28,392 nt of DNA from a virus, in IMG/VR virus record IMGVR_UViG_3300028393_001676, positions 1 through 28,392 of that record; one strand, written 5' to 3'. A program made the translations under genes and the position numbers. The notes beneath the pieces are model-generated. The model saw only the letters and a program-made list of their open reading frames with translations, did no database searches and had not been told where the DNA came from. Positions 11,217-28,392 of this stretch are shown piece after piece (position 1 is the stretch's first letter; each line of letters starts with the position of its first letter).

Positions 11217-11936
11217 ATGAGTAAACAACGAGTGAAAAAGCGTTTTACATCAGAAGTTAATATCATTGATTTCCAGCCGTATCTTCCGGCAAAAAAGCAA
11301 CGTGTTAATATTAATGCACGTAATGCTAATCAGAAACTTTATCTTAGCAAATTATACGAAGAATCCACTAGCATAGTACTTGCTATCGGACCTGCCGGCA
11401 CGGGTAAAACCATGCTAGCCGTACAGTTTGGTATTAAATTGTTTCAGGAAGGCAAAGTTGACAGAATCGTGGTAACAAGACCCGCCGTGTCCGTAGATGA
11501 GGATTTAGGCTTCTTACCAGGTGACTTGAATGAAAAGATGGCACCTTGGACAAGACCTATATTCGATGTCTTGGGCGAATATTATCAAAAGAAAGAAATA
11601 GCCAACATGTTGGAGGAAGGTGTTATTGAAATAAGTCCACTTGCTTATATGCGCGGCCGCACATTTAAAAATGCTTATATCGTCGCTGACGAAATGCAAA
11701 ATGCCACAGTTAATCAAATGAAAATGCTACTAACCCGTTTAGGAGAGGGCTCTAAGATGGTAGTGACAGGAGATCTAGCTCAAGCAGATAGAATAAACGA
11801 CAATGGGTTAATTGATTTTTGTAACCTAATTGCCAAAAAAGAATATTTAGAGCACATTGATATTATTCAATTTGATGCTCGTGACATCGAACGCCATAAT
11901 GCCGTGAAGGAGGTGTTAGCGGTTTATGGAGAATAA
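11217..11936 (+). CDS. phoH: PhoH-family ATPase
   Basis: 239 residues. Walker A GPAGTGKT (58-65), Walker B IVADEMQNA (D158, E159) and the sensor-type VTGDLAQAD (183-191) match PhoH, including TRPAV (88-92) and the PGDLNEKM motif (101-108). PhoH is a P-loop ATPase, often part of phosphate-stress responses in hosts and frequent in aquatic phages; its molecular role in infection is unsettled. It is the only plus-strand gene here. It has a candidate sigma70 promoter, an AGGAG site six bases before the ATG, and a strong terminator after the stop shared with the convergent gp44 gene. Confidence 0.94.
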   Translation: MSKQRVKKRFTSEVNIIDFQPYLPAKKQRVNINARNANQKLYLSKLYEESTSIVLAIGPAGTGKTMLAVQFGIKLFQEGKVDRIVVTRPAVSVDEDLGFLPGDLNEKMAPWTRPIFDVLGEYYQKKEIANMLEEGVIEISPLAYMRGRTFKNAYIVADEMQNATVNQMKMLLTRLGEGSKMVVTGDLAQADRINDNGLIDFCNLIAKKEYLEHIDIIQFDARDIERHNAVKEVLAVYGE

Positions 11937-12909: not shown

Positions 12910-13280
12910 TCTGTATCCTTAACAAACTGTTTCAAATTCGGCGGAGTCCAACCAACTGGTTTTAGTACTTTCCCGTCTTCACGCTTACGAACCTTGCCGG
13001 TCTCTTTATCAATCTTAGCAAAGTTTGTATTCATTACTTCCTTCCAGCCGCCTTCTGAATCTGCGCCCATACTATGCATGGCACCAATACATACTACTAC
13101 AATGTCTAGTAGTGCGTCAAGTGTTTCGACCCTGTCCTTGTGATTAAGTGCTAGGACCAGTTCTTTACATTCTTCTTCAATCAATTTAAGATACATGTTA
13201 AATTGATCTTCATTCCAATCACCTACTGTTTGATCGCAGGCTTTCATAAATTTTTCTTGATCGCGAAAAGGATTTGTCAT
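12906..13280 (-). CDS. MazG/PRA-PH-like nucleoside triphosphate pyrophosphohydrolase
   Basis: 124 residues, all-alpha NTP-PPase type. EEECKE (35-40) and ETLDALLDI (52-60, E52/D55/D59) are the acidic metal-binding pattern EExxE...ExxD of this superfamily, and the tail NTNFAKID...GKVLKPVGWTPPNL is typical of phage members related to HisE-like domains. The enzymes hydrolyse (d)NTPs to NMP and pyrophosphate, here possibly cleaning the nucleotide pool or altering alarmone levels; the substrate is not determined by sequence. It overlaps gp44 and its upstream neighbour by four and one bases. Confidence 0.82.
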   Translation of the reverse strand: MTNPFRDQEKFMKACDQTVGDWNEDQFNMYLKLIEEECKELVLALNHKDRVETLDALLDIVVVCIGAMHSMGADSEGGWKEVMNTNFAKIDKETGKVRKREDGKVLKPVGWTPPNLKQFVKDTE

Positions 13281-13571: not shown

Positions 13572-13991
13572 TTATTTTGGATGGAAATCGTATTCTGGAG
13601 GACTTAAATCAATAGAGGTCAACCCAAACGACAGTTCCTTTGGCTTGTCATCAGCTGACATCAACATACAATTGGTGTCTACACGAAATATTTTGCGTGT
13701 AGTACCGTCAGTTTCTTCCACAGTGATAGCTCTAGTCCAACGACCGTGTTCAATAAGGATCCATTCGCCTACTTTGATATCTTTTTGTTGCGGGCCAACA
13801 GCATATACTCGCCCCCAACGAGGTTTGATACCTTCAGTCTTACCATCATCGCTAGGTATGTAAATACCACCGGCACTAATTTGTTCGTCAAAACTCATGT
13901 CGGTAACAAACACGTTGTCACGTATGGGCAAAATTTTGCCTTGTACTGTGGGTTTAAATCCTACGTGGCCAATACCTTTTGAATCCATCAT
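13572..13991 (-). CDS. GroES-like co-chaperonin (T4 gp31-type)
   Basis: 139 residues. ILPIRDNVFV (20-29) is the GroES opening strand (PLxDRV-like), and SFDEQISAGGIYIPSDDG (33-50) fits the mobile loop ending in a hydrophobic tripeptide (IYI) that binds GroEL. RWGRVYAVGP (58-67) matches the GxVxAVGxG core, and KVGEWILIE (73-81) the VGDxVLF strand. It is longer than GroES (97) and gp31 (111): both an N-terminal lead and a 25-residue C-terminal tail are added. It would cap host GroEL for folding phage proteins, as gp31 does for the T4 capsid protein. The start overlaps the upstream stop (TAATG). Confidence 0.85.
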   Translation of the reverse strand: MMDSKGIGHVGFKPTVQGKILPIRDNVFVTDMSFDEQISAGGIYIPSDDGKTEGIKPRWGRVYAVGPQQKDIKVGEWILIEHGRWTRAITVEETDGTTRKIFRVDTNCMLMSADDKPKELSFGLTSIDLSPPEYDFHPK

Positions 13992-14341: not shown

Positions 14342-14349
14342 TACTTATC
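14342..14349 (-). promoter_or_regulatory. Weak candidate late promoter (GATAAGTA)
   Basis: Minus-strand GATAAGTACTATTATAAT, 25 bases before the gene starting at 14317 and overlapping the previous stop. One base differs from the GATAAATA elements at 3248 and 16234, and the following ACTATT resembles that at 8345. Confidence 0.3.
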
Positions 14350-14848
14350 TCAGGAATTCACGCCAGTCTAAATTATAGGCTAAACTATCTATTTTATGAA
14401 CTCCTATCAAATATAACACATAACTTGCTACACTCGACCCTCTGCCTACACCCCATAGAATTTCTTTTTCTTCTAAAGTATCTACCAAATATTTAAGGTA
14501 GTACAATAAATCCATCATGCCGTGCGCTATAAATGCTTCTAATTCTTCGCTAACTCTGGTTGTTTGTTCTGGAGTAGTACACATTCCGTATAACATTTCT
14601 ACTAGATTTGCACAGTAGTCCTTGGGCATAAACCAAAGTTGTTGACTGGCCCTGTCGTAATCTTGGATATTATTGTGAGTTTCGTATGGCGTAACAAATC
14701 TAAAACCAATTTGTTCTTCTAGTTGTTTTACAGCATCAGTGCGTTCAACAATCATGGTGTCGTCCACATTAAATTGATATCCATTATAAATGGCATCAAA
14801 TAAATCGTGTTCTTCAAAGATTGGATTACTGTATTTGTCTAGGCGCAT
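14345..14848 (-). CDS. Stand-alone DNA polymerase III alpha (DnaE)-like fragment, lacking the catalytic aspartates
   Basis: 167 residues. The last 60 (GMMDLLYYLKYLVD, then WGVGRGSSVASYVLYLIGVH and NLDWREFLR) closely follow the start of the PolC/DnaE palm: YFLIVWDFI, GPGRGSAAGSLVAYxLGIT, DPLxYxLxFERFLNPER. In DnaE the catalytic PDFDID follows directly, but here the protein stops at EFLR. It therefore has the nucleotide-triphosphate-binding GxGRGS loop (GVGRGSS, 133-139) but no catalytic Asp pair, and no PHP, fingers or beta-binding domains. The N-terminal 100 residues are unrecognised. It sits in a cluster with replication genes. It is a real gene rather than a decayed one: ATG at 14848 with AGGT, intact frame, tight spacing. 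Confidence 0.72.
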   Translation of the reverse strand: MRLDKYSNPIFEEHDLFDAIYNGYQFNVDDTMIVERTDAVKQLEEQIGFRFVTPYETHNNIQDYDRASQQLWFMPKDYCANLVEMLYGMCTTPEQTTRVSEELEAFIAHGMMDLLYYLKYLVDTLEEKEILWGVGRGSSVASYVLYLIGVHKIDSLAYNLDWREFLR

Positions 14849-15088: not shown

Positions 15089-16203
15089 TAATGATACTCG
15101 CCTAAATATTTAATGTAAACATTAGTACCGGCGTCGTATGTCCATGCTTCAATCACTTTGATATTGTTACTAGTACTAGATGTTAATGTTGCAACCGCGG
15201 TAGCAGTTACTCCAGCAGTAGGCGCACTAATGGTAACAGTTGGAGCAACAGTAGTATAACCATCTCCTGCAGAAGTAAGATTAATAGATTTTATTCCGTT
15301 AGATACTGTAGCTTTTGCGTTGACACCCGATCCGCTAATTGCTGTTAAAGTATATGTACCTGGATATGGTCGATTCAATGTACCACTGCTAACTACGGTA
15401 AATGCTGTGATTGCACCTGTACCTTGTGTAATTGTGGCTACTTGTAAAATAACATCGCTGTGTGCATCGATAGCCAATTGATCGCCAACTTGGAAACCTG
15501 TGCCACCAACTGATACAGTTGCACTAACGATTTGATATACAGCCGTTGCTGTAGGGCTAGTACCGCCTGACAATACCGGGCTAGTAAAACTTATGGTTGC
15601 CGGTGTAGTGTATCCAGAATTAGGAGTACTATTAATGTTAGCATTGGTTACTTGAATACTGTCAACTCCTTCGCCTCCTACTGTAAATCCTAAAGTAGTA
15701 GTTCCTGGCAATGTTGGATAATCGGTAGCATAATGAATTGTGCCAGATCGTTCTGTACTAAAACTAACAGTTCTAACTCCAGCGCCGTCGCCAACTAAAA
15801 TAATTTGTATTTTAGCCCATTGACCGGTAGTTGACGGCCAGTTCACAAATGTTAAGGTAGGATTTCCAGCCAGTTTAAATTTTTGTATAGGGCCACTGGT
15901 TAAATCTATATTTGCATTGGCACTGATACCTAACAAGCTACCGTCAAAATATACGCCGTAAAATTGACTATACAATGCATTGTATATTGTACTGCCTAGC
16001 ATGTTATTTTGTACAGTGGTAGTGCCTGTTGCTAAATCTGCTTTTAATATTGTATTAGATTGCAATGCTGTAATTTCTGCTTTGGCAACACCTAGCCCAG
16101 CTGAAATAGCTGTAAAGTTATCTCTAAATCCCTGACTGTTGTTATCTTGTCCGGCAACTGGGTAAGTTGTGTTAATTGCACCGTAATTAATCTGACTGGT
16201 CAT
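15088..16203 (-). CDS. Virion/tail-fibre-type structural protein
   Basis: 371 residues. The N-terminus (INYGAINTTYPVAGQDNNSQ, then GFRDNFTAI) is a module I associate with structural proteins of marine T4-like phages, and it is a divergent cousin of the N-termini of the proteins at 20396 and 20974. Residues 180-345 are Gly/Thr/Val-rich beta repeats of the form SxGxGY...PTVTIxxP, resembling fibre shafts. The end is GTNVYIKYLGEYH. The ATG overlaps the preceding stop by four bases (ATGA). Probably part of the tail fibre or baseplate periphery; exact role unknown. Confidence 0.75.
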   Translation of the reverse strand: MTSQINYGAINTTYPVAGQDNNSQGFRDNFTAISAGLGVAKAEITALQSNTILKADLATGTTTVQNNMLGSTIYNALYSQFYGVYFDGSLLGISANANIDLTSGPIQKFKLAGNPTLTFVNWPSTTGQWAKIQIILVGDGAGVRTVSFSTERSGTIHYATDYPTLPGTTTLGFTVGGEGVDSIQVTNANINSTPNSGYTTPATISFTSPVLSGGTSPTATAVYQIVSATVSVGGTGFQVGDQLAIDAHSDVILQVATITQGTGAITAFTVVSSGTLNRPYPGTYTLTAISGSGVNAKATVSNGIKSINLTSAGDGYTTVAPTVTISAPTAGVTATAVATLTSSTSNNIKVIEAWTYDAGTNVYIKYLGEYH

Positions 16204-19200
16204 ACTGTTATCCTATCGTTTTTGAATACTAGGTATTTATCGCTTGTGTAACCGGTGACAGAATCTATTATATATCGGTCCACGGTGTAATCTAAATCTT
16301 TAAAATCAAACCCGCTATTTTCAATTAATAGCTTTATCCCTGCACTTTTACCCACTAAACAATAACAAATAGGAACGGCAAGCACAAATCCTATTTCTTG
16401 TTTAGTGCCCGGTTGAATACTGCGCATCCATAAAGGCAAATAATTGCGTTCTGTTAGGCCGGTTTGCCCAATACGATACTGCCAATTCGTTATACTACTG
16501 GGGAAAAACTTACTTACATTTGAATTGCTAATTTGATACCCTGTACTATCGGCAGTTACCACTTCTAATGGTCTACTGTTGCTAGGAGCATTTGCAGTCA
16601 AATCCGACAGATTTCTACTCCACAAATTTGGAACACTATCAATAGTTATGGTATCGGACTGATGTCCTCTACTTTTTATAGATGTTGGCAAATGTAATCC
16701 GTTAGGTTCTAATGGGTCTAGCATTTTTAAATAAACAACTTCGTATACCGCTGTTGTAGTTCCCGGCAAGTAAGCTACAGCAGTTTCTACACTATTAAAT
16801 ATAAATCGTTTGCGTTTATGATTAAGCCCCATAGCTGAAGCAAGTTTTGCCGCACTATTGGTTTGGATTCCTGCATAGGCAACCATGCTAAGATTATATT
16901 GTAATCCAAAGTTTGGATCATTTGATCTGTAAATTGATTGTGGCGCAAACACTGTGGTGTTGTTCATAAAACTCTTAAATGCAGTTCGTTGAGTATTATT
17001 CAAGTATGGCTGTACTCGTATGTTACTGTAGGCAATAGCGTTAGGTACATCTATGTTTACTGTAAATGTTCGAGATACCGCACTGTAACCAAATTGATCT
17101 CTAGCTTCTACAGTGAACGAATACGAACGATCAACAGTGGTAGCGGCTACATCGAATGTTAGATTGCCATGGTCAAAGCTGGTTAAGCCCAATATGTGGT
17201 TGGCTGGGTCGGGGAATTGTATAACTTTACCGATTATTTCGCCATCGGTGGTTAAAGTGAGCCCGTTAGGCAACACTCCTTGAGTAACCGTATACAATAC
17301 AACTGCATTTAAAATTGTTGTTGTAGCACTTACCCGTAGCGTAGAAATATAGTTTGCATGAATAGTTCCAAGATTGCTTGGAGTGTTCCAGGTAATTACG
17401 CTGTCTATTTCGCCTATGATTGTTATAGTAAATGTTCTGCTTGAGCTAAGACTATCACCTTTATTACCCGGACGAGTTGCAGTCAACGTAAATGTATAGA
17501 TAGTAGTAATAGCTGGTTGGTACGGAACATTTCCGTATAATTGCGCAGTGTTTAAATCAAAACTCATACCAGGTGGTAGTGAGCATAGTGTGCCTATGTA
17601 AAATATAGTGCCGTCTGGAATATTCTGTAATAATGTAGACGAAATATATACTCTATAAACTCCGTTACCTAAATTAATTACGTTGCTAATTCTATAAGTT
17701 TGTCCGGTCGCTCCAGGAATAATTCCTTCAAAACAAATATATTGTCCTATCGCAATATTGCCTTTAACATTGGTTACTGTAAGATGGTTACTACGAAACG
17801 AATTGTCAGTGTTGGATATATTAATACTGGTAGCACGGACTTCTCGATTAATCACTTCTTGATTATAATATACATTATTATTATCGTACAATGCTACTGG
17901 AATAGTAAGATAGTTACTGGCTCTGAATATACCCAAGTTAGGATTAGATAACCACACTGGCTGACGCAAATAAGTGGCATCTGCGGTAAATCCTTGATTA
18001 CCAACAAATCCATCCAAACTGGTGTTGTCAGCACGGAATGTATCATCACCTACTACAAATATTCTAAAAATTCTCTGAGCTATTTTGTAACCGTCTGTTA
18101 CTGTTACTTTAAACTGGTAGTTGACGTTAAGACTGATAGGCTGACCGTCCGGTAAATTGTAATCATAAAACACATCATCGTAAAAATATGTATCAAATCC
18201 GTTGGTAGACAGTGTGGCAAAGTCGTAGGCTACAGCGTCATAAGTAGATTCGTCGTAGGTGCCTTTTCCGTCCGCTGGTGTAATTTTAAGAGTAGGCTTT
18301 ATGTATCCGGTAATCAATCCAGTGGAGTCCATACTTAGACCTGGAGGCAAAGAACCGTCTCCGGATGCTATGTAATAAGTTAAAATGTTTCCAAGGGCTT
18401 CGTCAAGATCAAATGCTTCTATTTTATAATTTACATAAGTTCTGTCAAGTGCGTACAGTTGTTGATGAATACCTACCGGCAATGCTCCTGCGGCTGTGAC
18501 AAATGTGGGAACATTAACAGCACGGGTAGTTATGCTGAATGTTCTATCAGCAATGCTTACACCATTAGAGGCTCTTATGCAAAATGTAAATGTAGTATCA
18601 GTGGCAACAATATAAGGATAGCCAATGATGTGTGAACCGGATATTTGTAATCCGCCAGGTAAAGCACCACTGATTATATTATAAGTAAATGCCGCTGGAT
18701 CCGTAGCGGGATAATTAACGCCTCCGGCAGTATCAGTTGTAATGTAATCAACACCATTTATAGCAGTAGGCAAATATAAATCAGAACGTTCAACAGCTAC
18801 AAACGCATCGAGTTGCATGCGAACAGTATCAGTGTTTCTAAGTATAATTTTCGATAATGTTTGAGATTGCAACCAGTCAAAGTCTCCAGGTGCCCATGGC
18901 TGGTTTTCCCAGTATAGCGCATCACCATCGCGTAGTCTTATCATCTGGCTTGATATGATATTTTGAAAAGTTTGTCCTACCATAGCACCGGGAACTGGAG
19001 TTTCGGCTAACCCTCCGACCCACAAATCAATATTATTAATATTAGTATATGCAGTTTGTAAAGCGGAAGCTACTACGCTGTCTGTAGTTATTTGACTAAA
19101 TGAAGTGTACGCCGATAATCCTAATGCTGTACGCATTTGATTTAAACTTGGTAATCCAGCATCACGTCCACGTTGTATATTAGTTGCGGCAAGATCCATT

Positions 19201-20396
19201 GCGGCAGGCGGATCATTTAATAAATTACGCAAGTCTTCAATGATATGTACATCTAATTTATTACTGATGTCGCTGGCTAATTTGCGTATAAACCCGTCAG
19301 CACCGCCATTACGTTCAAACTGTGCAGGTGTTAAAAAGAAAGCCTGAGCCAATGTCAAAGACTCTAAAATGTTACCCTGTTCGTCTACACGATCTTGCGC
19401 ACCTGATACAATACTATGACCAAATCTCATTGCTGCCACAGCAAACTCTACAGTTACGCTGGCATCGATATTTGTTTTAAAACCTGTATATGCCGGAATA
19501 GTTGAAGCACCGACAATCTTTGGCAACCATTCTTTATATGTTATATTTTGAAATTCGGCAATAACTATGTTGCGAGCACGTTGATATAATTGTTCTCCAG
19601 TCCATGTTGGATGTAGTACTTTTAATCTGTCAACATGCCAGTTATGTTCTCTGATGAATAGTGTTTGTATAGACGTTAAATCTGGATTTTCTGTGCCTCG
19701 AGGATCTCCAAATACAAAACTATTATTAACAACAGGTGCATATTGTCCATTAGAGCTGGTAGACAATTTGCCAGTAGTTGCAGGTTGACCGCCTTCTCTT
19801 AAATTAATAGGATTTTGAAAAACAGTTGGACCTTGTGATACACCTGGAGGATAGGCAAGTCCATAAACAACACTACAATCTATCCAGCCAGTGACATCAT
19901 TTATTGGCAGTGCTGTATGACCAGCTATACCTGTTCCTGGGGCAATAGCACTACGATTAACTGGAATATGACTTCCGGGAGTTAAATTAGTGTCACCTGC
20001 CGGCACAACAACATCTATGTTAGTACTACCAGGTCGAGCAAATTCTAAATCGTGTGTTAAAAATTGTCCAAATGCATACATGAATCCGCTATATCCAGTA
20101 GGATCAGTTTCTTCACCTTCGTTGACTTGATCCCACACTACTAAATTACTAACAGTGCGAGCATTAGGCAAATCATTACGCATTTGATAAATGCCGTCTA
20201 CATAACTGTTTACAGCATTACGAATAAAAGGGGCACCGGCACTATTTCGTAAAGTAGCAACCGGATGATGTCCTTGCCCGGTATAACTGGGATTAGTTAA
20301 TGCCCCGCCAATAGGTAAGGCAATATTTACTGATGTTTGTTCAGTAAAAGTGCCGAGACTTGCTCCCGACTGTTTTGTCCATACATCTAAAGCCAT
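16200..20396 (-). CDS. Phage structural protein with N-terminal animal-type haem peroxidase domain and Ig-like repeats
   Basis: 1398 residues. About 55-535 matches the peroxidase-cyclooxygenase (animal haem peroxidase) superfamily: distal motif GQFLTHDLEF (110-119; Gln111, His115, Ca ligand Asp116), Ca loop TGWIDCS (169-175), catalytic Arg and haem-ester Glu in GDPRGTEN (R233, E236), LFIREHN (246-252), proximal His327 in RFGHS, NIQRGRD (406-412), WVGGLAE (459-465) and RLRDGDALYWEN. The residue before the distal His is Thr114 where myeloperoxidase has the haem-linking Asp. Residues 540-1130 hold Ig-like (He_PIG-like) repeats with LPxGLxxxxxGxIxG signatures. The last 270 residues (ending DRYIIDSVTGYTSDKYLVF...) resemble large virion proteins of T4-like aquatic phages. 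No signal peptide. It overlaps both neighbours (TAATG, ATGA). The family oxidises substrates with H2O2; the role on a virion is unknown. Confidence 0.9.
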   Translation of the reverse strand: MALDVWTKQSGASLGTFTEQTSVNIALPIGGALTNPSYTGQGHHPVATLRNSAGAPFIRNAVNSYVDGIYQMRNDLPNARTVSNLVVWDQVNEGEETDPTGYSGFMYAFGQFLTHDLEFARPGSTNIDVVVPAGDTNLTPGSHIPVNRSAIAPGTGIAGHTALPINDVTGWIDCSVVYGLAYPPGVSQGPTVFQNPINLREGGQPATTGKLSTSSNGQYAPVVNNSFVFGDPRGTENPDLTSIQTLFIREHNWHVDRLKVLHPTWTGEQLYQRARNIVIAEFQNITYKEWLPKIVGASTIPAYTGFKTNIDASVTVEFAVAAMRFGHSIVSGAQDRVDEQGNILESLTLAQAFFLTPAQFERNGGADGFIRKLASDISNKLDVHIIEDLRNLLNDPPAAMDLAATNIQRGRDAGLPSLNQMRTALGLSAYTSFSQITTDSVVASALQTAYTNINNIDLWVGGLAETPVPGAMVGQTFQNIISSQMIRLRDGDALYWENQPWAPGDFDWLQSQTLSKIILRNTDTVRMQLDAFVAVERSDLYLPTAINGVDYITTDTAGGVNYPATDPAAFTYNIISGALPGGLQISGSHIIGYPYIVATDTTFTFCIRASNGVSIADRTFSITTRAVNVPTFVTAAGALPVGIHQQLYALDRTYVNYKIEAFDLDEALGNILTYYIASGDGSLPPGLSMDSTGLITGYIKPTLKITPADGKGTYDESTYDAVAYDFATLSTNGFDTYFYDDVFYDYNLPDGQPISLNVNYQFKVTVTDGYKIAQRIFRIFVVGDDTFRADNTSLDGFVGNQGFTADATYLRQPVWLSNPNLGIFRASNYLTIPVALYDNNNVYYNQEVINREVRATSINISNTDNSFRSNHLTVTNVKGNIAIGQYICFEGIIPGATGQTYRISNVINLGNGVYRVYISSTLLQNIPDGTIFYIGTLCSLPPGMSFDLNTAQLYGNVPYQPAITTIYTFTLTATRPGNKGDSLSSSRTFTITIIGEIDSVITWNTPSNLGTIHANYISTLRVSATTTILNAVVLYTVTQGVLPNGLTLTTDGEIIGKVIQFPDPANHILGLTSFDHGNLTFDVAATTVDRSYSFTVEARDQFGYSAVSRTFTVNIDVPNAIAYSNIRVQPYLNNTQRTAFKSFMNNTTVFAPQSIYRSNDPNFGLQYNLSMVAYAGIQTNSAAKLASAMGLNHKRKRFIFNSVETAVAYLPGTTTAVYEVVYLKMLDPLEPNGLHLPTSIKSRGHQSDTITIDSVPNLWSRNLSDLTANAPSNSRPLEVVTADSTGYQISNSNVSKFFPSSITNWQYRIGQTGLTERNYLPLWMRSIQPGTKQEIGFVLAVPICYCLVGKSAGIKLLIENSGFDFKDLDYTVDRYIIDSVTGYTSDKYLVFKNDRITV
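16234..16241 (-). promoter_or_regulatory. Candidate late promoter (GATAAATA) inside the end of the peroxidase gene
   Basis: Minus-strand AAGCGATAAATACC, 31 bases before the gene starting at 16203. Identical over 13 bases to the intergenic element at 3248. It also encodes the conserved residues DKY, so coding constraint alone could explain it. Confidence 0.35.
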
Positions 20397-20944
20397 TAGA
20401 TAATTGTTCCAAAATTTACTTGTAGTTGGGGCTTAGGATCTACCAGCTGACCCATGTCAACAGTGTATCCTCTAAAATTAGTGTCAAGACCCGCCGGAGT
20501 TTGTATAGACCCCATGTCAACATTTACAGTACCTGATTCAATAATCATGCTGACTAAAAAAGACAAATTAGGAACATCAATGCCGCGTACTGTAGTTTGG
20601 GTATCGCCTGGCCCGACAATATTGTGTCCAGCTAGATTTAAATTAGCTGACAGTGTGGGAGCAAGATCGTTAGCCAGTCGTGTGTTAGCATGTAAGTTGA
20701 CTGTGGTAGAAGTATTAGTAAACGTAACTGTACTGTCTGTACTAGTTAATGTTTTAAACTGTAAATTCACACCATCACGTGACGCATACACACCGGTGCC
20801 ACTGCCCACGTTGGCTCCGCCTAAAATAGTAAATTCTGTATCTAATGCGGCAAAATTGTCGTTTACTTTAAGAAACGCAGTACGCAAGTCATCGCCAGTA
20901 CCGTCGTTTGCGTAGTTACCTAAGTTAATCTGTTGTAATGGCAT
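20396..20944 (-). CDS. Small virion/fibre-associated protein with the NxxDGTGDDLRTAF module
   Basis: 182 residues. Residues 4-33 (INLGNYANDGTGDDLRTAFL, then KVNDNFAAL) form a module shared with the next protein (INIGTAANSKNGDPLRTAFT, then KVNANFTEL). The rest is Thr/Asn/Val-rich beta structure (TSTDSTVTFTNTSTTVNLHA) with a C-terminal MGSIxxPAGLDTNFRGY segment. Such modules occur at the N-terminus of fibre-type proteins in T4-like aquatic phages and may be a docking or trimerisation element. It overlaps the peroxidase gene by TAATG. GGAG lies before the ATG. Function inferred from context. Confidence 0.72.
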   Translation of the reverse strand: MPLQQINLGNYANDGTGDDLRTAFLKVNDNFAALDTEFTILGGANVGSGTGVYASRDGVNLQFKTLTSTDSTVTFTNTSTTVNLHANTRLANDLAPTLSANLNLAGHNIVGPGDTQTTVRGIDVPNLSFLVSMIIESGTVNVDMGSIQTPAGLDTNFRGYTVDMGQLVDPKPQLQVNFGTII

Positions 20945-20973: not shown

Positions 20974-22182
20974 TTAGACTGCTGTGAATGTTGTTGTCAA
21001 TGCTAATAAGGTAATTGCTGTTGATATCTTATTGCAAGTTCCGTATTGGAATACCGGACCAGTATATAATACCACATTGCCTGCAACACCATTAATAGCA
21101 CGATTGGTTGCTTGTGCGACTGGCACGTTGAATGTACATACACCAAACTGCATACTTGCTGTGCCACTCATTGTGACACCATACGTATTGGCCGCTGTAC
21201 TAGTATTGTTTAGAATACAGTTGCCCATGCCAAATGCCACAGTTCCGCTCAGTGTAATAATTGCACCGGTATCAGCATCGACTACGCTGTTTAATAGTGT
21301 GCCAGTTGAAGCATTGGCATAATTCAATACTTGACCAGTACCGTTGGTTTCAAGATTGTTAATTTTACAATATCCATTTTGAACATCAATCAAATAAGTT
21401 GAACCGCTTGCTCTACTCACTGTGCAATCTGTCAACTCTAATTTGGTAGTTGCTCCGCTGTTGGTCATATACACACAACTGTATCCGCTGGTGTTTTGAT
21501 AAACATAAACCCCCTCTAAGAAAACACGGGCTGGGTTAGTGCCATTCACAACAATACCATGAGCTCCTGTGGCAAGAACAGCCACGTTGAATAGGCCAAA
21601 GTCGTTTGTATTTTTATTAACAGCACCAGGAGTAATTGTAACAGTACCTGTGATCCAAATTGGCACATGGCCTGCATCCGGTGTTGCTCCAATAATGTAA
21701 ATGTGCCCACGTGTCAGTGTTACGTCTTCTGTAGTTGAACCTGATAGCACAATAAATTGTGGGTTAAGAAAAATAGTAGAAGTAGAAGTTGCATCAAAGT
21801 TGGTTAATGTTCCAGCTGTAATCCTTGCTTCGATACCAGCCAGTGCGGCAGTGATGCTTTTGTAAGGTTTTAACAAACTGCCATCGGCTGTATAAGTGTC
21901 AGTTCTAGTTGGATCAACATTCCAAACGTTATCACTATTATTGGTCACAGGAGCAAACAAACTAACTCCATCTCGTTTAATATCACCAACAGTTGACGGC
22001 AATGTCAACACGCCGTCGGATCCTAAGGTCACGGTATAAGCACCATTTGTCAACTGTGTTTCATTTGCCGCGCCAGCATACAGCTCAGTGAAGTTTGCAT
22101 TCACCTTTGTAAATGCCGTGCGCAACGGATCGCCGTTTTTGCTGTTGGCCGCTGTGCCGATATTGATAGTTTGTTTTGCCAT
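20974..22182 (-). CDS. Fibre/tailspike-like protein with predicted beta-helix
   Basis: 402 residues. N-terminal INIGTAANSKNGDPLRTAFT (5-24) is the shared module. SDNVWNVDPTRTDTYTADGS leads into KPYKSITAALAGIEARI, the usual entry into pectate-lyase-like right-handed beta-helices. Residues 150-400 show repeating short beta strands (VFLEGVYVYQN, KLELTDCTVS, YCKINNLETNG, AFGMGNCILNNT, SMQFGVCTFN), consistent with coils of a beta-helix. No catalytic residues can be assigned. The ATG overlaps the upstream stop by one base (TAATG), with AGGGAGA as ribosome site at the end of that gene. Likely a spike, or fibre element that contacts host surface polymers. Confidence 0.78.
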   Translation of the reverse strand: MAKQTINIGTAANSKNGDPLRTAFTKVNANFTELYAGAANETQLTNGAYTVTLGSDGVLTLPSTVGDIKRDGVSLFAPVTNNSDNVWNVDPTRTDTYTADGSLLKPYKSITAALAGIEARITAGTLTNFDATSTSTIFLNPQFIVLSGSTTEDVTLTRGHIYIIGATPDAGHVPIWITGTVTITPGAVNKNTNDFGLFNVAVLATGAHGIVVNGTNPARVFLEGVYVYQNTSGYSCVYMTNSGATTKLELTDCTVSRASGSTYLIDVQNGYCKINNLETNGTGQVLNYANASTGTLLNSVVDADTGAIITLSGTVAFGMGNCILNNTSTAANTYGVTMSGTASMQFGVCTFNVPVAQATNRAINGVAGNVVLYTGPVFQYGTCNKISTAITLLALTTTFTAV

Positions 22183-25100
22183 TACATTCTCCCTACAGCC
22201 ACTTGGATAACTCCGGCTTCACCGTAGTCTTTGTCTTCTAATGCTTTACCAATCACAGCACCTAATGTAGGACTCAATGCCTTGACAGCGTATCCAGGTG
22301 TTGCACTTGTGGTCAACATGTCGCCTTTCTTAACACGACCTACCACTTTAACAGGTACACGGCCGGCCAGTGCGATACAAACTTTTATACCAGTTTGTTC
22401 ACTGTTCATAATGTAAGCTGGATTGGTAGTTACCACACCAGCTGAACGTGTGTCGTTGATTTGACCAGTTGTGGTTACTTCCTTATCACCACCAAACACC
22501 AACACAGTACCAGCTTCGTATTCTTGGTCACCTTCATAGTATTCAGCCAAGTCAGCGTAAGTGGCTTGTAATTTACTTGCACCAACCAAACTCCAGTTGC
22601 CTTGTATGGTACCGGCTGTCAAGTCACCGCCAGTGGTTAATGTCAATGATTTTAATGTAGCCAGGGTCACGTCCCATACACTCGAAGCCTGTACACTCCA
22701 ATTACCAATAACCTGACCAGTTGCACTACTACCACCTGTTGTAAACAAGGTAGACTTTAGTGTGCCGCTACTGGTATCCAGTGTACCATAAGTTGCAATT
22801 ACAGTATTACTTGCGTTACCACCAGTGGCAGTCATGTAGTCAAAATTACCAGGTGTTGTAAATGTCAGCGTAGTTGAATTTAAAGAAACGGCCTTGTAGC
22901 TACCAATCTTTACAAAACCCACGTCAATTTCTTTGTTAGGCCCGGTCCTTAACAAACTGTTGGTGCCATTACCTCCAGCAGTTGTAGTTCCCACCACGCT
23001 GTAGGTATTGTTGGCAGTACTGATTCCGTCATACGTAACAGTCATTACTCCACTTGCGCTGAAATTGCTGTTAATAATACCACCAGCACTTGTAACAACT
23101 TGGCTTGGAGTTACTGTTGTTGGACTAGCAAAACTGCTACCCAAGTTACCTAAAATAGTACCATTACTGATATGTTGAATCTTAACTAGAGGGATACCTG
23201 TAATGGCACTGGTACTAGTTAAATGCGTTATCCAACCATTGGTACTGGTAAACTGACTACTATCAAAACTAGCCAGGCCCAAATTGGCCTGTGCAATACC
23301 AGATGCAGTTGCTTGTGTAGCAGCCGCGTTCATGGACAATTTGCTTTGCGCAATGGCCGCACTTGCACTGACCTGGCTGTTGACAATTACACCTGCGTTA
23401 ATAGCATGTGTAATTACGCCAGTCACACTGTTGAATGATACTGCCACATCACCAGCGGTTGCTGTTGCATTTCTCCATTTGGTCAGTGTAGCATCATAAA
23501 CTAACAATTGTGCATTGGACAAGGCTGATACCTGCACGTCAGTCAATGTTGACAATTTACTGACTAGTGATAGTCCTGAATCTACATATGATTTATTAGC
23601 ACCGTCGGTTCCTAATTCTGGAGTTCCTACGTTTTTAATAGTGTAACCAGACATGTTAAGGCTACCTTTCATGCCTAATCCACCACCAAGGCTTAGATAA
23701 CCATATCCAATTATATTGGACAATGCCACTGGGCTTCCACCGTGATCCAATCCTAAACGTCTGTCAATGTAACCACGAACAGCACTTTGTACACTTACTG
23801 TATCACTAGCGTTGTTGGTCATACCAGTGTCTGTTGAAAACTCACTAACAACAACACCACGTTTGAATCCTAGACCGTCCAAGTTACTTAGGGCAATACT
23901 TGCACTGAATGTAACTGATCCAGTTCCTTGGTCAACTGTAAAGAAACGTCCAACACGGAAGATACCGTTTTGGTCAGTACTCACATAGAACACACGACCT
24001 ACGCCTTCTTCTACGATCTCTTGACTCTGCTGTGCGCTCTTAGCCGGGTTACCATAGATAACTGTTGGCCAGTTGGTAGTTGTGTAGCTACCAGTGCCAA
24101 TGTATAAGAAATCATGTCCAGTAGCACGACATGTACTGATACGTGTGGTAATTTGTCCGCCTTCTGCTGCCGGATATCCTAAACGTAATGTACTTGCTGT
24201 GCCAGCACTAAACGGTTTTCCTAATCCTAATTGAGTACTACTACCTGTAGTATTTTCACTAGTTACTGAAGTAATAGCAGTAAATTGTCCAAGCACTGTT
24301 ACCGCAGTATTAGTTGCATTGGCAAAACTAATTGTACTGCCAGCACCAATCATGGTAATCAAACTTGAAATACTTCCAACAGTTTGACTATTGTTGATAG
24401 TGTATGTTCCAGCACCACCGTTTACACCTGATACAAATGCTGTAACATACGTACCAGAAGTTAAATTAGTGTTTGCACCAGTTATAATTTGTCCCAATAC
24501 AACGGCGCCGGTAGTTAAGGCAGTTACAGTTAAGGTCGTTCCACTAATATATCCTACAAATGTACTGCTAGTAGTTCCTACCGCAGTAATAGTAGCGTTA
24601 CCATTATATCCACTAGGACTAAATCCACTAACTGTGATATTAGTACTAACTCCAGGACTATTACTTTGTGTGGCAAAACTTAGCGTAACCGTTGTTCCGT
24701 CACTGCTTAGATAAGTTGTTTTTATACCCCATGTTCCAGGATTATAAGGATAACTTAGGGTCATGCCAGTAATAGGCCCTGCATTAACGTTTGCTGAAAT
24801 ACTAGAAGTTTGTAATCCTAATACTGGTGTTAGTGACGGGCTTGAGCTTACTGTTACACTCTTGTTACCGGTATCAATACTAGATATGTAGTACATATTT
24901 CCACTAACAATATTACCTAACACTGTTCCACTGATAGCAGTCCAGCTGCCTGTAGATTGTGTAGTGCTAACTAATGGAGTAAGAGTGCTACTACTGCTGA
25001 CTGTAATCTGTTTGTTTACGCTATCGATGGTTGTGATATAGTATGTACTACCAGAACTTATTCCACCAAAACTTCCACCACCCGAGCCGCTCCATGCTCC

Positions 25101-28100
25101 TGCAGAATTGCTAACGGTCAAGGTGTTAACAAGTGCCGCGTCGGTTGCTACTGTTATTTGATTAGTACCACCATTAATTGTTTTAATATAGTAGGTGCTT
25201 CCGCTAGCAACGCCGCCCAGTGATCCGCCGGCAATACTAGTCCATGAACCAGCGCCATTGGTTACACTTATAGCCCCAGTTCCAAAACTTGAACTTACTG
25301 TAATTTGATTGGTACTAATACTGGCAATATAATATGTACTACCCGAAGTAACTCCGCCAAATATGCTATTAGTTACACTGGTCCATCCACTTGTACCAGC
25401 TGTACCGTTACTAAATGTCACTGTAGGAGTCAACGTTGGACTTGTACTTAAAGTAACTTTCGGACTACTAATAGTTACAACATAATATGTAGTGCCGCTA
25501 GTTAATCCACCAAGCACAGATCCAGCGATGCTTGTCCATCCGCTTGTACCACTATTAGTTTGTGTTAGTGTAGTTACAGGAGAAAGTGTCGGGCTTGTAC
25601 TTAAGGTCACTTGGTTGCTGGCAATGCTGGCAATATAATAAGTAGTTCCAGAAATTACTCCGCCCATTTGGCCGCCTGCTGTTACATTCACAGGACCGCT
25701 GGCATTAGACAATGTAACGTTTGAGCCACCATATGAAGCACTCACAGCCAGTTGAGTGCCGTTGGCTAGTAGTTGTGTAATATAGTAATTGTTTGAACTT
25801 AGTAGTCCGCCAACGTTACTACTTACAGTAAACCATTCGCCGATGGCCATGCCGGCTGTGCTAGACACTGTGATTAAATTATTTGCACCACTGATAGCTG
25901 TACTAGATTGTAGTGTGCTGGCGTTAACTGTAAAACTTGTGCCTGTAGTTGGAGTACCACTTGCACTAGCACTTACTGTATATGAACCGATACCACCAGT
26001 GCCTGTTCCAAATGCAACAATGTATAAACCAGCAGTTACGCTTGTTCCAGTAATAAGCATACCTACACTTAGTGAGCCTGAACTAACGTTTGAGACGTTT
26101 AAGGTAGTTGTGGCAAATGTGCCAGTAAACAATGCCTGATTAGCGGCAGTAATATACACACCACTAGTGCTAGTTAAGGCACCACCAGTCAATACCATGC
26201 CTACCGCAAATGTACCTGTTACAGTACCAGTTGGAGTAAACACTGTGCCAGCTGACGGGACAGCCGCGCCGTTACCAATAATACCAGTTGTTGTGCTGGC
26301 AGTAGCAGTAAATGTTGTACTTAATGTTGTTGCTTGACTTGTTGCTGTGAATATAATACTCTGACCCACAGTTAAACCACTAGTGCTACTTAACGTAGCT
26401 AAATTTCCACTGGCACTGGTAGCAGTCAATGTAGCTGTATTAGTGGTTACTACTGTAGGAATAAAACTAGAGCCAACTGATAAACCTGCTGTGCCGCTTA
26501 GGGTAACTGAATTATCCGCACTTGCTGTAGATACAACAGTTGGTGTTTGTGTCACAGAAGTAAACACAATTGGCTGATTGACCACTAGCCCAGAAGTTGA
26601 ACTTAGTGTTAACAGTCCCCCAGAATTAGTTGTAGCAGTTAATGTCGGAGTTTGTGTTACTTGAGTAAACACAATTGGTTCACCTACTACTAAACCTGAT
26701 ACAGTGCTTAATGTTAATAAGTTTCCAGTAGCAGTGGTTGCTGTTAGTAAATCACTTTGCGTAACAGCAGTGAACACAATACTACGTCCGACAGTCAAGC
26801 CAGTAGTTGAACTTAATGTTAACAACCCCCCGCTGGCACTGGTAGCAGTTAATGTTGTGTTCTGAACATTATTAGCAGTAAACTGAATTGGCATTCCAAC
26901 AGTTAATCCTGAAACGCTAGCCAGTGTTGTTCCATTAGTAGTGCCGCTAGTTGCGCTAGCCGTAGTAGAATAAATTCCAGTAATTTGTGCGTAACCATTG
27001 TATAATGGATTGCTATTGTTGCTTACGCGGTAATATGTACCAGCCGCAGGAATATTTGTTAGTGTAAGATTTACACTGGCCAGATACGGACCACTACCTG
27101 ATAAACTATTAAATCCGCTAACTGCTGTAGTAGTACCGCCAGTAAAACTTCCAGGATCAGTGGGATACGCTAGTGTAACTTGTGTAGATATAATACCTGC
27201 ATTAATAACGCTGTTAGTAGTAGGATTACTAGACAATACTGGGGTTAATTCACCGTTACCATAACTAAGTGTAATAGTTGGATTGCTAGTATAACCATAT
27301 CCAGGACTTACCACAGTTACAGAAGCAATAGCACCGTTAGCAACAGTACATGTTGCAATAGCTTGATTAATTGCTCCGCCGCCTGTAATTGTAATAGTAG
27401 GAGCAACTCCGCTGCCATACGATGTTCCGCCACTGGTAATGCTGATTCCACTTAAGGTAGATACCAATGTACTTGTTACAAACGATCCAGCTGGTAACCA
27501 GCATGCCGGGCTAACAATAAATGTGTTGGTATTAGAATTAATACTTTGTATAGTTGTACTTGGCTGGAAAACAGCACCAGTGTTGAGAGAGAACGTTAAT
27601 CCACCAGGAGTACCGCTGGTTACAGTAAGCGCACCGCCTTGAGCAGTTGTTAAAGTAAAACTGGTATTGTTAGAAGTTGCACTAACAGTATAAGTGTTAC
27701 CTGAAATATAACTGGCCCATGTGATTCCAGTTAGAGTACCAGTAACAGTTATAGACATGCCTACCACTAATGCAGTCTGTGCAGACACTACCGACGAAGT
27801 ACATGTGAATGCTCCACCGCCTGCACTTACAACATTGCTTAAAGTTAATGCAGTGCCAGTAACAACCATGCCTACGCTTAGACCTGTTACACTAGCAACA
27901 CTAATTTGAGTTTGATTTTTAACCGTTAAAATTTGATATGTACCGTTGTAACTAGTATTGCTTTGTCCAGACACGGTCATATAACTGTCTACAACTGGTA
28001 ATGTAGTTCTAAATGGTACATCAAAAGTTACCGCAGTATAAGTAGTACCCGTTGGTCCACTGGCCTTACTTACATAGGTCATGGCATTCAACGCAGTACC

Positions 28101-28392
28101 ATCGGCACTGTTGTTATAAACGCTGTTAGGATCTAGAGTTAAATAACCGTTGGCAGCAACACCAAATGTTATAGTACCACTAGGAGTACCTGTTGCTGGC
28201 GCACTTAATACAACTGTTGCTGTAACTGAAGTGGTTCCTGAAAGTGTTACACTACTAACAGTTTGTGTTCCATCAAATCCAGTTCCCGTTACAATTTGTC
28301 CAGCACTAATATTTCCACTAACATTGATAACAACTAATGTATACACATTGCCTACAGCGGTATAGGTTGGGGATAAACCAGTAGCAATAAAT
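22182..28392 (-). CDS. Giant repetitive tail-fibre/virion structural protein (5' end outside window)
   Basis: The frame is open to the right edge: codons upstream of a GTG at 28346 continue as [14 protein letters not shown] without a stop, so the true start lies outside and at least 2069 residues are visible. The body is Ser/Thr/Gly/Val-rich with two tandem repeat arrays (see repeats). It is followed by a conserved module ([39 protein letters not shown]), then [13 protein letters not shown] with ANKSYVD typical of fibres, and a C-terminal domain ([37 protein letters not shown], ending VAVGRM) that recurs at the ends of aquatic phage fibre proteins. A role in host recognition is inferred. It is translationally coupled to the next gene. 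Confidence 0.82.
24820..25815 (-). repeat. Array of about seven ~48-residue repeats (SGxTYYIxxIxxxxxTVS)
   Basis: In the giant fibre gene, successive units share FGGxxSGSTYYIxxI...NQITVSSS, a Pro/Val/Thr stretch and GxxGWTSIxG. Units are spaced by about 140-155 bases and are diverged at DNA level (different synonymous codons), so the array is old rather than a recent slippage expansion. Probably repeated beta domains of the fibre shaft. Confidence 0.8.
26325..26960 (-). repeat. Array of about six 35-residue repeats (105-bp period)
   Basis: Units read [20 protein letters not shown] then TVGxxIVFTxVTQ-x. Spacing is exactly 105 bases between equivalent TAAACACAATTGG-type positions (26561, 26666, 26771). 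Three central units are closer in DNA than the outer ones. A likely shaft-extending element; unit number could vary among related phages. Confidence 0.85.

Follow-up and report, generated by a model that had tools for sequence, protein, structure and literature searches.

Do phages oxidise their way to the surface of their host, or protect themselves there? The question is made testable by a gene in IMG/VR virus record IMGVR_UViG_3300028393_001676, of which we analysed positions 1 to 28,392 (hereafter the window, a 28.4-kb virus record). The gene encodes a protein of 1398 amino acids (aa) that joins a haem peroxidase to an immunoglobulin (Ig)-like scaffold of fibre type. Phage particles carry hydrolases and lyases, and the virion-associated depolymerases and proteases of phages belong to these classes. 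A catalytically intact haem oxidoreductase that is traded between phages would add redox chemistry outside the cell to the repertoire of tailed phages. If it truly serves entry, phages would have a kind of entry enzyme that belongs to neither the hydrolases nor the lyases. Such an enzyme would also lead one to ask at which place a phage protein is loaded with haem. A first-pass annotation of the window had already proposed the peroxidase and its fusion to a phage structural protein. Three features go beyond that proposal: the domain lies inside an Ig-like domain, it is swapped between phages as a cassette, and the Asp that usually forms an ester bond is missing.

The peroxidase domain and its active site

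It is virtually certain that the protein contains a full-length haem peroxidase domain of the peroxidase-cyclooxygenase superfamily, kin of lactoperoxidase (LPO). In the profile search that the first-pass annotation had suggested, the match to PF03098 (An_peroxidase) runs from position 3 to 530 of the 530-position profile and scores 382 bits against a cut-off of 25; with an E-value of 5.3e-114, a match by chance is excluded. The six signature motifs are found where they had been placed, between residues 110 and 465: GQFLTHD (110-116), TGWIDCS (169-175), GDPRGTEN (230-237), RFGHS (324-328), NIQRGRD (406-412), and WVGGLAE (459-465). Only the borders needed correction, as the proposed span (18792-20234) corresponds to residues 55-535 and starts about 18 residues late, the domain itself occupying residues 37-532.

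The predicted fold agrees with this assignment. An AlphaFold2 model of residues 1-640, built from 85 diverse alignment rows, reaches a mean predicted local distance difference test (pLDDT) score of 90.8 and a predicted template modelling (pTM) score of 0.84. It superimposes on the peroxidase of Cyanobacterium TDX16 (Protein Data Bank (PDB) entry 8s6c) with a VIA-align Z of 48.5 and a root-mean-square deviation of 2.0 over 493 residues, on Dictyostelium peroxidase A (DdPoxA, 6erc) with a Z of 43.8, and on MPO and LPO with a Z of about 40-43. A sequence search of the PDB puts the same two entries on top, 8s6c (E 3.5e-75) before 6erc (E 5.8e-66). An intact haem pocket, which had been named as something to check by structure prediction, is thus supported by sequence and predicted fold alike.

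To look at the active site, we used an alignment of 108 rows, comprising the window, 26 other phage rows, 79 bacterial rows, and two PDB chains. Loci retrieved by our scans carry L-numbers (L002, L003, and so on); L012, L018, and L060 were dropped here as too short, as were copies of one contig. Gln111, His115, Asn406, and Arg409 are invariant in all 26 phage rows covering these positions, and Arg233, Glu236, and His327 in all 27. In its fold, its distal Gln-His-Arg-Glu, and its proximal His-Asn-Arg, the phage domain is therefore like 8s6c, DdPoxA, LPO, and MPO, from which it differs in being encoded by a phage and nested within one Ig-like domain of a protein of fibre type. Directly before the distal His, where the superfamily typically has the haem-esterifying Asp, Thr occurs in 26 of 26 phage rows and Asp in 78 of the 79 bacterial rows. 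This Asp is not obligatory, since the accepted member DdPoxA has Ile there. With Thr114 in place of Asp, a single haem ester bond is therefore predicted, via Glu236, as is described for DdPoxA in the cited sections of PMC5787809. For DdPoxA, the same sections describe fast oxidation of iodide and thiocyanate, very slow oxidation of bromide, and none of chloride (PMC5787809). By analogy, we infer a single ester bond and a modest redox potential for the phage enzyme.

Of the putative calcium ligands, T169, W171, and D173 are present in 27 of 27 phage rows; position 175 is Ser in 20 rows and Thr in seven, and at distal position 116, 15 of 26 rows have Asp and 11 have Glu. As each of the 27 phage rows has either no or one Cys in the domain, folding in the cytoplasm does not depend on a disulphide. 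Judged from conserved residues and model, the enzyme is probably catalytically active.

Nesting, exchange, and origin of the peroxidase

The first-pass annotation's description of the peroxidase as fused to an Ig-rich phage protein that is encoded among fibre genes holds: the fibre neighbours are conserved, and He_PIG repeats follow PF03098 in three stretches of the window protein (in the same Pfam search, Big_13 and pAdhesive_6 stayed below their cut-offs). How the peroxidase is seated becomes clear from peroxidase-free scaffolds, namely L006, L013, L015, L016, L017, and L019 by Pfam and most of the 80 kept scaffold loci by sequence. In such homologues an N-terminal anchor (W..SG.SLGTF.E..V...LP) leads into ..Y.VISG.LP.GL; in L006 and L170 it runs straight into the rest of Ig-like domain 1, and in L006 the anchor and the following half form one He_PIG domain (residues 13-88, Pfam). 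In the window, the peroxidase sits between these two halves, with model strands flanking it on either side (12-18 and 23-26 before, 571-625 after). Homologue comparison and predicted fold together show it to be nested in a loop of the first Ig-like domain. There is also an alternative site, the last Ig-like domain, in L039, L126, L127, and L128 (the latter by coordinates), which gives two insertion sites for the peroxidase.

Nine long peroxidase-free scaffolds contain no other inserted enzyme according to Pfam, with He_PIG found in eight and no match in one. Small additions do occur: the N-termini of L161, L162, L182, L190, L193, and L204 have a small module (..Y.I..VGTTDF..IGA..) in the first Ig-like region, and by a crude text match such a module is present in 20 of 68 scaffolds with complete starts. 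One scaffold homologue (L017:1202-4621) has a weak match to the carbohydrate-binding CBM_5_12, below cut-off (E 1.4e-4).

Pairwise comparisons reveal mosaic borders around the peroxidase. The window and L003 share about 96% protein identity in residues 1-550 and about 58% beyond. At the DNA level, in 60-base blocks, their identity is 48-53% immediately upstream of the start codon, rises to 81-100% as far as about base 1740 (with one block at 70%), and falls to 41-71% from there on. L004 and L007 likewise agree at about 98% in residues 51-550 and at about 52% past residue 600. The reverse is seen for L007 and L170, whose scaffold blocks from residue 601 are 94-100% identical, with the peroxidase in only one of the two proteins (their shared N-terminal anchor was judged by reading both sequences, the MAFFT pair having misplaced the N-terminus). 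In L024 and L026, scaffold and upstream DNA are mostly 95-100% identical (83-100% for the scaffold beyond base 2040), the first 700 gene bases 76-100%, and bases about 720-1860 66-88%, with one block at 38%. This pair would fit a partly exchanged cassette, and its contrast is less clean than that of the other pairs.

A scaffold tree of 90 rows (18 with and 72 without peroxidase) requires at least 11 gains or losses, of which at least 7 are forced by starred branches; some single changes among the 11 rest on unsupported branches, so that 7 is the supported minimum. The tree omits L039, L126, L127, L019, L041, L184, and L200 (alternative site, long branch, or cut ends), the copies or near-copies L009, L014, L037, L128, L185, L201, L129, L149, L022, L023, L025, L028, L029, and L030, and the cut open reading frames (ORFs) of L010, L011, L012, L018, L130, L156, L163, L186, and L195. 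Present or absent on near-identical scaffolds, near-identical on diverged ones, and gained, lost, and swapped, the peroxidase is shown by these comparisons to behave as an exchanged cassette.

While moving, the domain stays under purifying selection, as its substitution patterns show. The ratio of nonsynonymous to synonymous substitution rates (dN/dS, Nei-Gojobori) is 0.154 for the window and L003, 0.059 for L004 and L007, and 0.171 for L007 and L008, at a dS of 0.13-0.51; three further pairs with a dS above 1.2 give 0.066-0.135. We reject a pseudogene, as dN/dS is below 0.2 and internal stops are absent in 18 of 18.

How widespread is the fusion? Three scans of viral contigs with peroxidase-bearing queries and one with the scaffold gave 120 loci, and the peroxidase is present in 41 of them, or in 33 of 112 distinct contigs once eight double listings are removed. 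Its recurrence in other phage genomes, which the first-pass annotation had proposed to look for, is thereby established; of the 463 relatives confirmed in the scaffold scan, 80 were kept, and 33 of 112 is hence no measure of the true peroxidase share. Nine of the 33 peroxidase contigs (L010, L011, L012, L018, L041, L184, L185, L200, and L201) have a partial domain or end within it. Each of the 18 contigs tested has exactly one PF03098 copy. Among 50,697 phage records, nothing matched the peroxidase part at E 1e-5 or a Bradyrhizobium peroxidase at E 1e-3. The 50 matches listed from BFVD include no named tailed-phage peroxidase; the unnamed 308-residue A0A7T7DFZ6 matches in part, and Orpheovirus (with a haem peroxidase) and Yasminevirus (with an alpha-dioxygenase) are also represented. 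The protein of the giant virus Orpheovirus IHUMI-LCC2 is virus-encoded too and has the same fold (BFVD TMq 0.66); it differs in belonging to a eukaryotic virus, in its 23% identity, and in its length of 596 residues, hence without this scaffold. Our literature search, which covered open-licence papers, found no paper on a phage protein of this kind.

As for its origin, a scan with 8s6c in the alignment confirmed 151 cellular relatives, of which 80 were kept, and nearer bacterial relatives were possibly missed; a scan of cellular contigs with phage-specific patterns retrieved no relative. Nearest among the 80 are peroxidases of Bradyrhizobium (43-46% identity, tblastn), which, unlike the phage protein, keep the Asp and have no Ig scaffold. 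All 27 phage rows fall into a single group in the peroxidase tree, with a Shimodaira-Hasegawa-like approximate likelihood ratio test (SH-aLRT) support of 100. They group with Bradyrhizobium and one Rhodospirillales metagenome-assembled genome at SH-aLRT 99, where, as the tree program warns, a long branch (L061) joins. The simplest, if unproven, reading would be transfer from an alphaproteobacterial source. An animal origin is rejected, the nearest relatives found being bacterial in a tree that held no animal sequence. MopA and the long peroxicins are bacterial peroxidases with hemolysin-type repeats, as described in the cited portion of PMC6247904. Bacterial loci L046, L053, L062, and L061 appear, on reading of their sequences, to end in hemolysin-type or similar repeats. 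In the window protein and five phage homologues, Pfam found PF03098 and He_PIG and no hemolysin repeat of the kind seen in the long peroxicins (RTX).

Probable place on the virion and possible function

The scaffold protein, which is widespread in large phages, occurs in phages syntenic with PA5oct, Atu_ph07, and Phosso. Its C-terminal domain is homologous to that of S8-protease proteins of Atu_ph07 and Phosso (tblastn E 7e-16 and 2e-13 over residues 984-1398; hidden Markov model (HMM) E 2.4e-25 and 1.7e-23), which have a similar gene neighbourhood and a subtilase at the N-terminus instead of a nested peroxidase. For PA5oct, the scaffold HMM had no match in the 49-kb stretch searched. The Atu_ph07 homologue, AUZ95088.1, carries a Peptidase_S8 (subtilase) domain and is gp329 by our count of coding sequences (CDS) from ClpA (gp292) and DnaJ (gp293), checked at the tail fibre gp327. 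In the portion of the Atu_ph07 study used here, 131 proteins are reported from the virion, most of them in three clusters, and CDS 284-329 make up one of these (PMC6102473). By our own count, gp329 is the last gene of that cluster. From this context, the scaffold most likely serves the virion as a fibre or adhesion component, and the peroxidase protein is probably on the particle as well.

The best reading, to which we give an even chance, is that the virion carries a catalytic oxidoreductase which can be swapped and which acts at the surface of the host. Haem would be supplied by the host cell and held by the enzyme through one ester bond at Glu236, and the protein would sit on the particle. 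At contact with a cell or its slime, it may draw on local hydrogen peroxide (H2O2) and oxidise surface polymers or small donors. The enzyme would then be a redox counterpart of virion-borne depolymerases and proteases, and the cassette may be exchanged by host or habitat, like a receptor-binding module. With those enzymes it shares, as a functional analogy, the exchange of an enzyme domain on a fibre-region scaffold (here seen in mosaic borders, gain and loss, and a conserved neighbourhood); the difference is that this one is a redox haem enzyme. Surface oxidation as the main role falls somewhat short of even, and still more tentative is the idea of a redox weapon or tool on the particle of some large phages, producing oxidants or radicals at the host surface during adsorption. 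Even so, making oxidants is the best of the three functions put forward in the first-pass annotation, whose domain identity, haem pocket, and fusion have stood, whereas its adhesin and haem-lure ideas are less supported.

Several points weigh against surface oxidation by a virion-borne enzyme. A protective role would leave identical conservation. The peroxidase is absent from 79 of the 120 viral loci and thus dispensable to the scaffold. The presence of gp329 in Atu_ph07 virions is deduced from the cluster limits, and in Atu_ph07 and Phosso the protease is N-terminal, outside any Ig loop, on scaffolds of only 23-26% identity. More generally, virion place and activity in the peroxidase phages are read from genes and homologue context.

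The main rival, which we consider unlikely, is a virion-borne antioxidant that removes H2O2 (photochemical or from stressed hosts) and so protects the fibres or the infection site. It would explain the conserved catalytic residues equally well, and presence or absence differs between close relatives, as expected of a habitat-dependent trait. However, turnover of a peroxidase requires a donor, and compared with catalase such an enzyme is a poor stand-alone scavenger of H2O2; its insertion into an Ig-like domain of an adhesion-type scaffold also favours surface action. On the other hand, the redox potential of DdPoxA, which likewise has no Asp for the ester bond, is more negative than that of LPO in the cited sections of PMC5787809, and this fits one-electron or weak-donor chemistry.

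Quite improbable is a non-catalytic role, either as a peroxinectin-like adhesin or as a lure for host haem uptake. The scaffold is indeed Ig-like, and the second-best PDB structure, 6erc, is named Peroxinectin A in the PDB. Family 3 peroxinectins combine an integrin-binding KGD-type motif with the peroxidase domain, as stated in the cited part of PMC4420034. The window protein has one KGD tripeptide, at residue 979 in its Ig region and outside the peroxidase domain, which we take as chance; the domain itself has neither KGD nor RGD in the window and 26 further phage rows. Invariant catalytic residues and a dN/dS of 0.06-0.17 argue against both variants, and the conserved Glu236 predicts covalently held haem, which would suit delivery by a lure poorly. 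Just as improbable is an enzyme made and active inside the infected cell, with its fibre-like part not in virions: it would gain from the virion place being deduced from context, but the gene lies in a conserved fibre gene cluster and has a homologue at the edge of the Atu_ph07 virion-protein cluster.

Gene surroundings

The features of the window discussed here are collected in the table. Genes upstream of the peroxidase ORF have weak-to-moderate matches to T4 gp9/10 N-termini and to fibre proteins. A homologue of the 182-aa neighbour lies at most 4.6 kb upstream in 27 of 28 peroxidase loci, the exception (L041) starting inside the gene, and a homologue of the 371-aa neighbour lies directly downstream in 23 of 28, the remaining five ending before it. 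Among 16 peroxidase-free loci, 15 have the former and all 16 the latter. With phage genes flanking the peroxidase loci in this way, bacterial contamination is rejected. Nor is the ORF an assembly accident of a single record, because locus L002, on an 89-kb contig, is identical to the window at 13031 of 13032 bases.

Features of the window around the nested peroxidase (positions in the 28,392-nucleotide stretch)
Feature	Position	Strand	Basis
Scaffold protein with nested peroxidase, 1398 aa	16200..20396	-	ORF; PF03098 and He_PIG
Anchor at the N-terminus with the opening strands of Ig-like domain 1, residues 1-30 (W..SG.SLGTF.E..SVN..LP)	20307..20396	-	Common to peroxidase-free homologues; model strands 12-18, 23-26
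Haem peroxidase domain, residues 37-532	18801..20288	-	PF03098 E 5.3e-114 and 2.2e-117; model against 8s6c Z 48.5, against 6erc Z 43.8
Distal His115, with Gln111 just upstream and Thr114 at the usual site of the ester-forming Asp	20052..20054	-	Alignment columns
Distal Arg233 and predicted ester-forming Glu236	19689..19700	-	27/27 phage rows
Proximal haem ligand His327	19416..19418	-	27/27 phage rows
Proximal Asn406 and Arg409 (NIQR)	19170..19181	-	26/26 phage rows covering both
Rest of Ig-like domain 1 after the insert, residues about 566-640	18477..18701	-	Model strands 571-577, 583-586, 589-592, 601-610, 615-625
Further Ig-like (He_PIG type) region, borders approximate	17040..18476	-	He_PIG E 6.1e-19
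Scaffold C-terminal domain, border approximate	16203..17039	-	Also in S8-protease proteins of Atu_ph07 and Phosso
Downstream neighbour, 371 aa	15088..16203	-	Conserved neighbour; phmmer E 8.5e-10 to Phosso homologue
Upstream neighbour, 182 aa, weakly T4 gp9/10 N-terminal-like	20396..20944	-	Pfam E 0.0011, below cut-off; PHROG 677 E 2.8e-6
402-aa protein, T4 gp9/10 N-terminal-like, baseplate-fibre connector type	20974..22182	-	Pfam E 4.7e-4, below cut-off; PHROG 677 E 1.2e-8
Giant fibre protein, open at window end	22182..28391	-	C-terminus matches PHROG 19602 tail fibre, E 1.2e-6

In Phosso, the homologue of the 371-aa protein likewise comes after the S8 scaffold gene. The ClpA-like gene of the window matches PA5oct, Phosso, and Atu_ph07 (tblastn, phmmer), and so do its PhoH, clamp-loader, GroES-like, and DnaE-like genes, in a similar order. 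The window also encodes a clamp loader, DnaJ, a peptide deformylase, a GroES-like protein, and a phosphoribosyl-ATP pyrophosphohydrolase/MazG-type domain. Metagenomes 3300009182 and 3300010157 are among the 25 used for host prediction in the cited part of PMC8190135.

Some minor observations complete the picture. The giant fibre protein (at least 2069 aa) contains many mutually similar stretches. At 14345-14848, a 167-aa piece of a DNA polymerase III alpha subunit is encoded, too short for a polymerase; this fragment is kept near the GroES-like gene in PA5oct, Atu_ph07, and Phosso. The GroES-like co-chaperonin of the window lies at 13572-13991 (Cpn10 E 7.6e-7). Finally, the PhoH-like gene (11217-11936) lies on the strand opposite to the other long ORFs, and PA5oct is alike in this respect.

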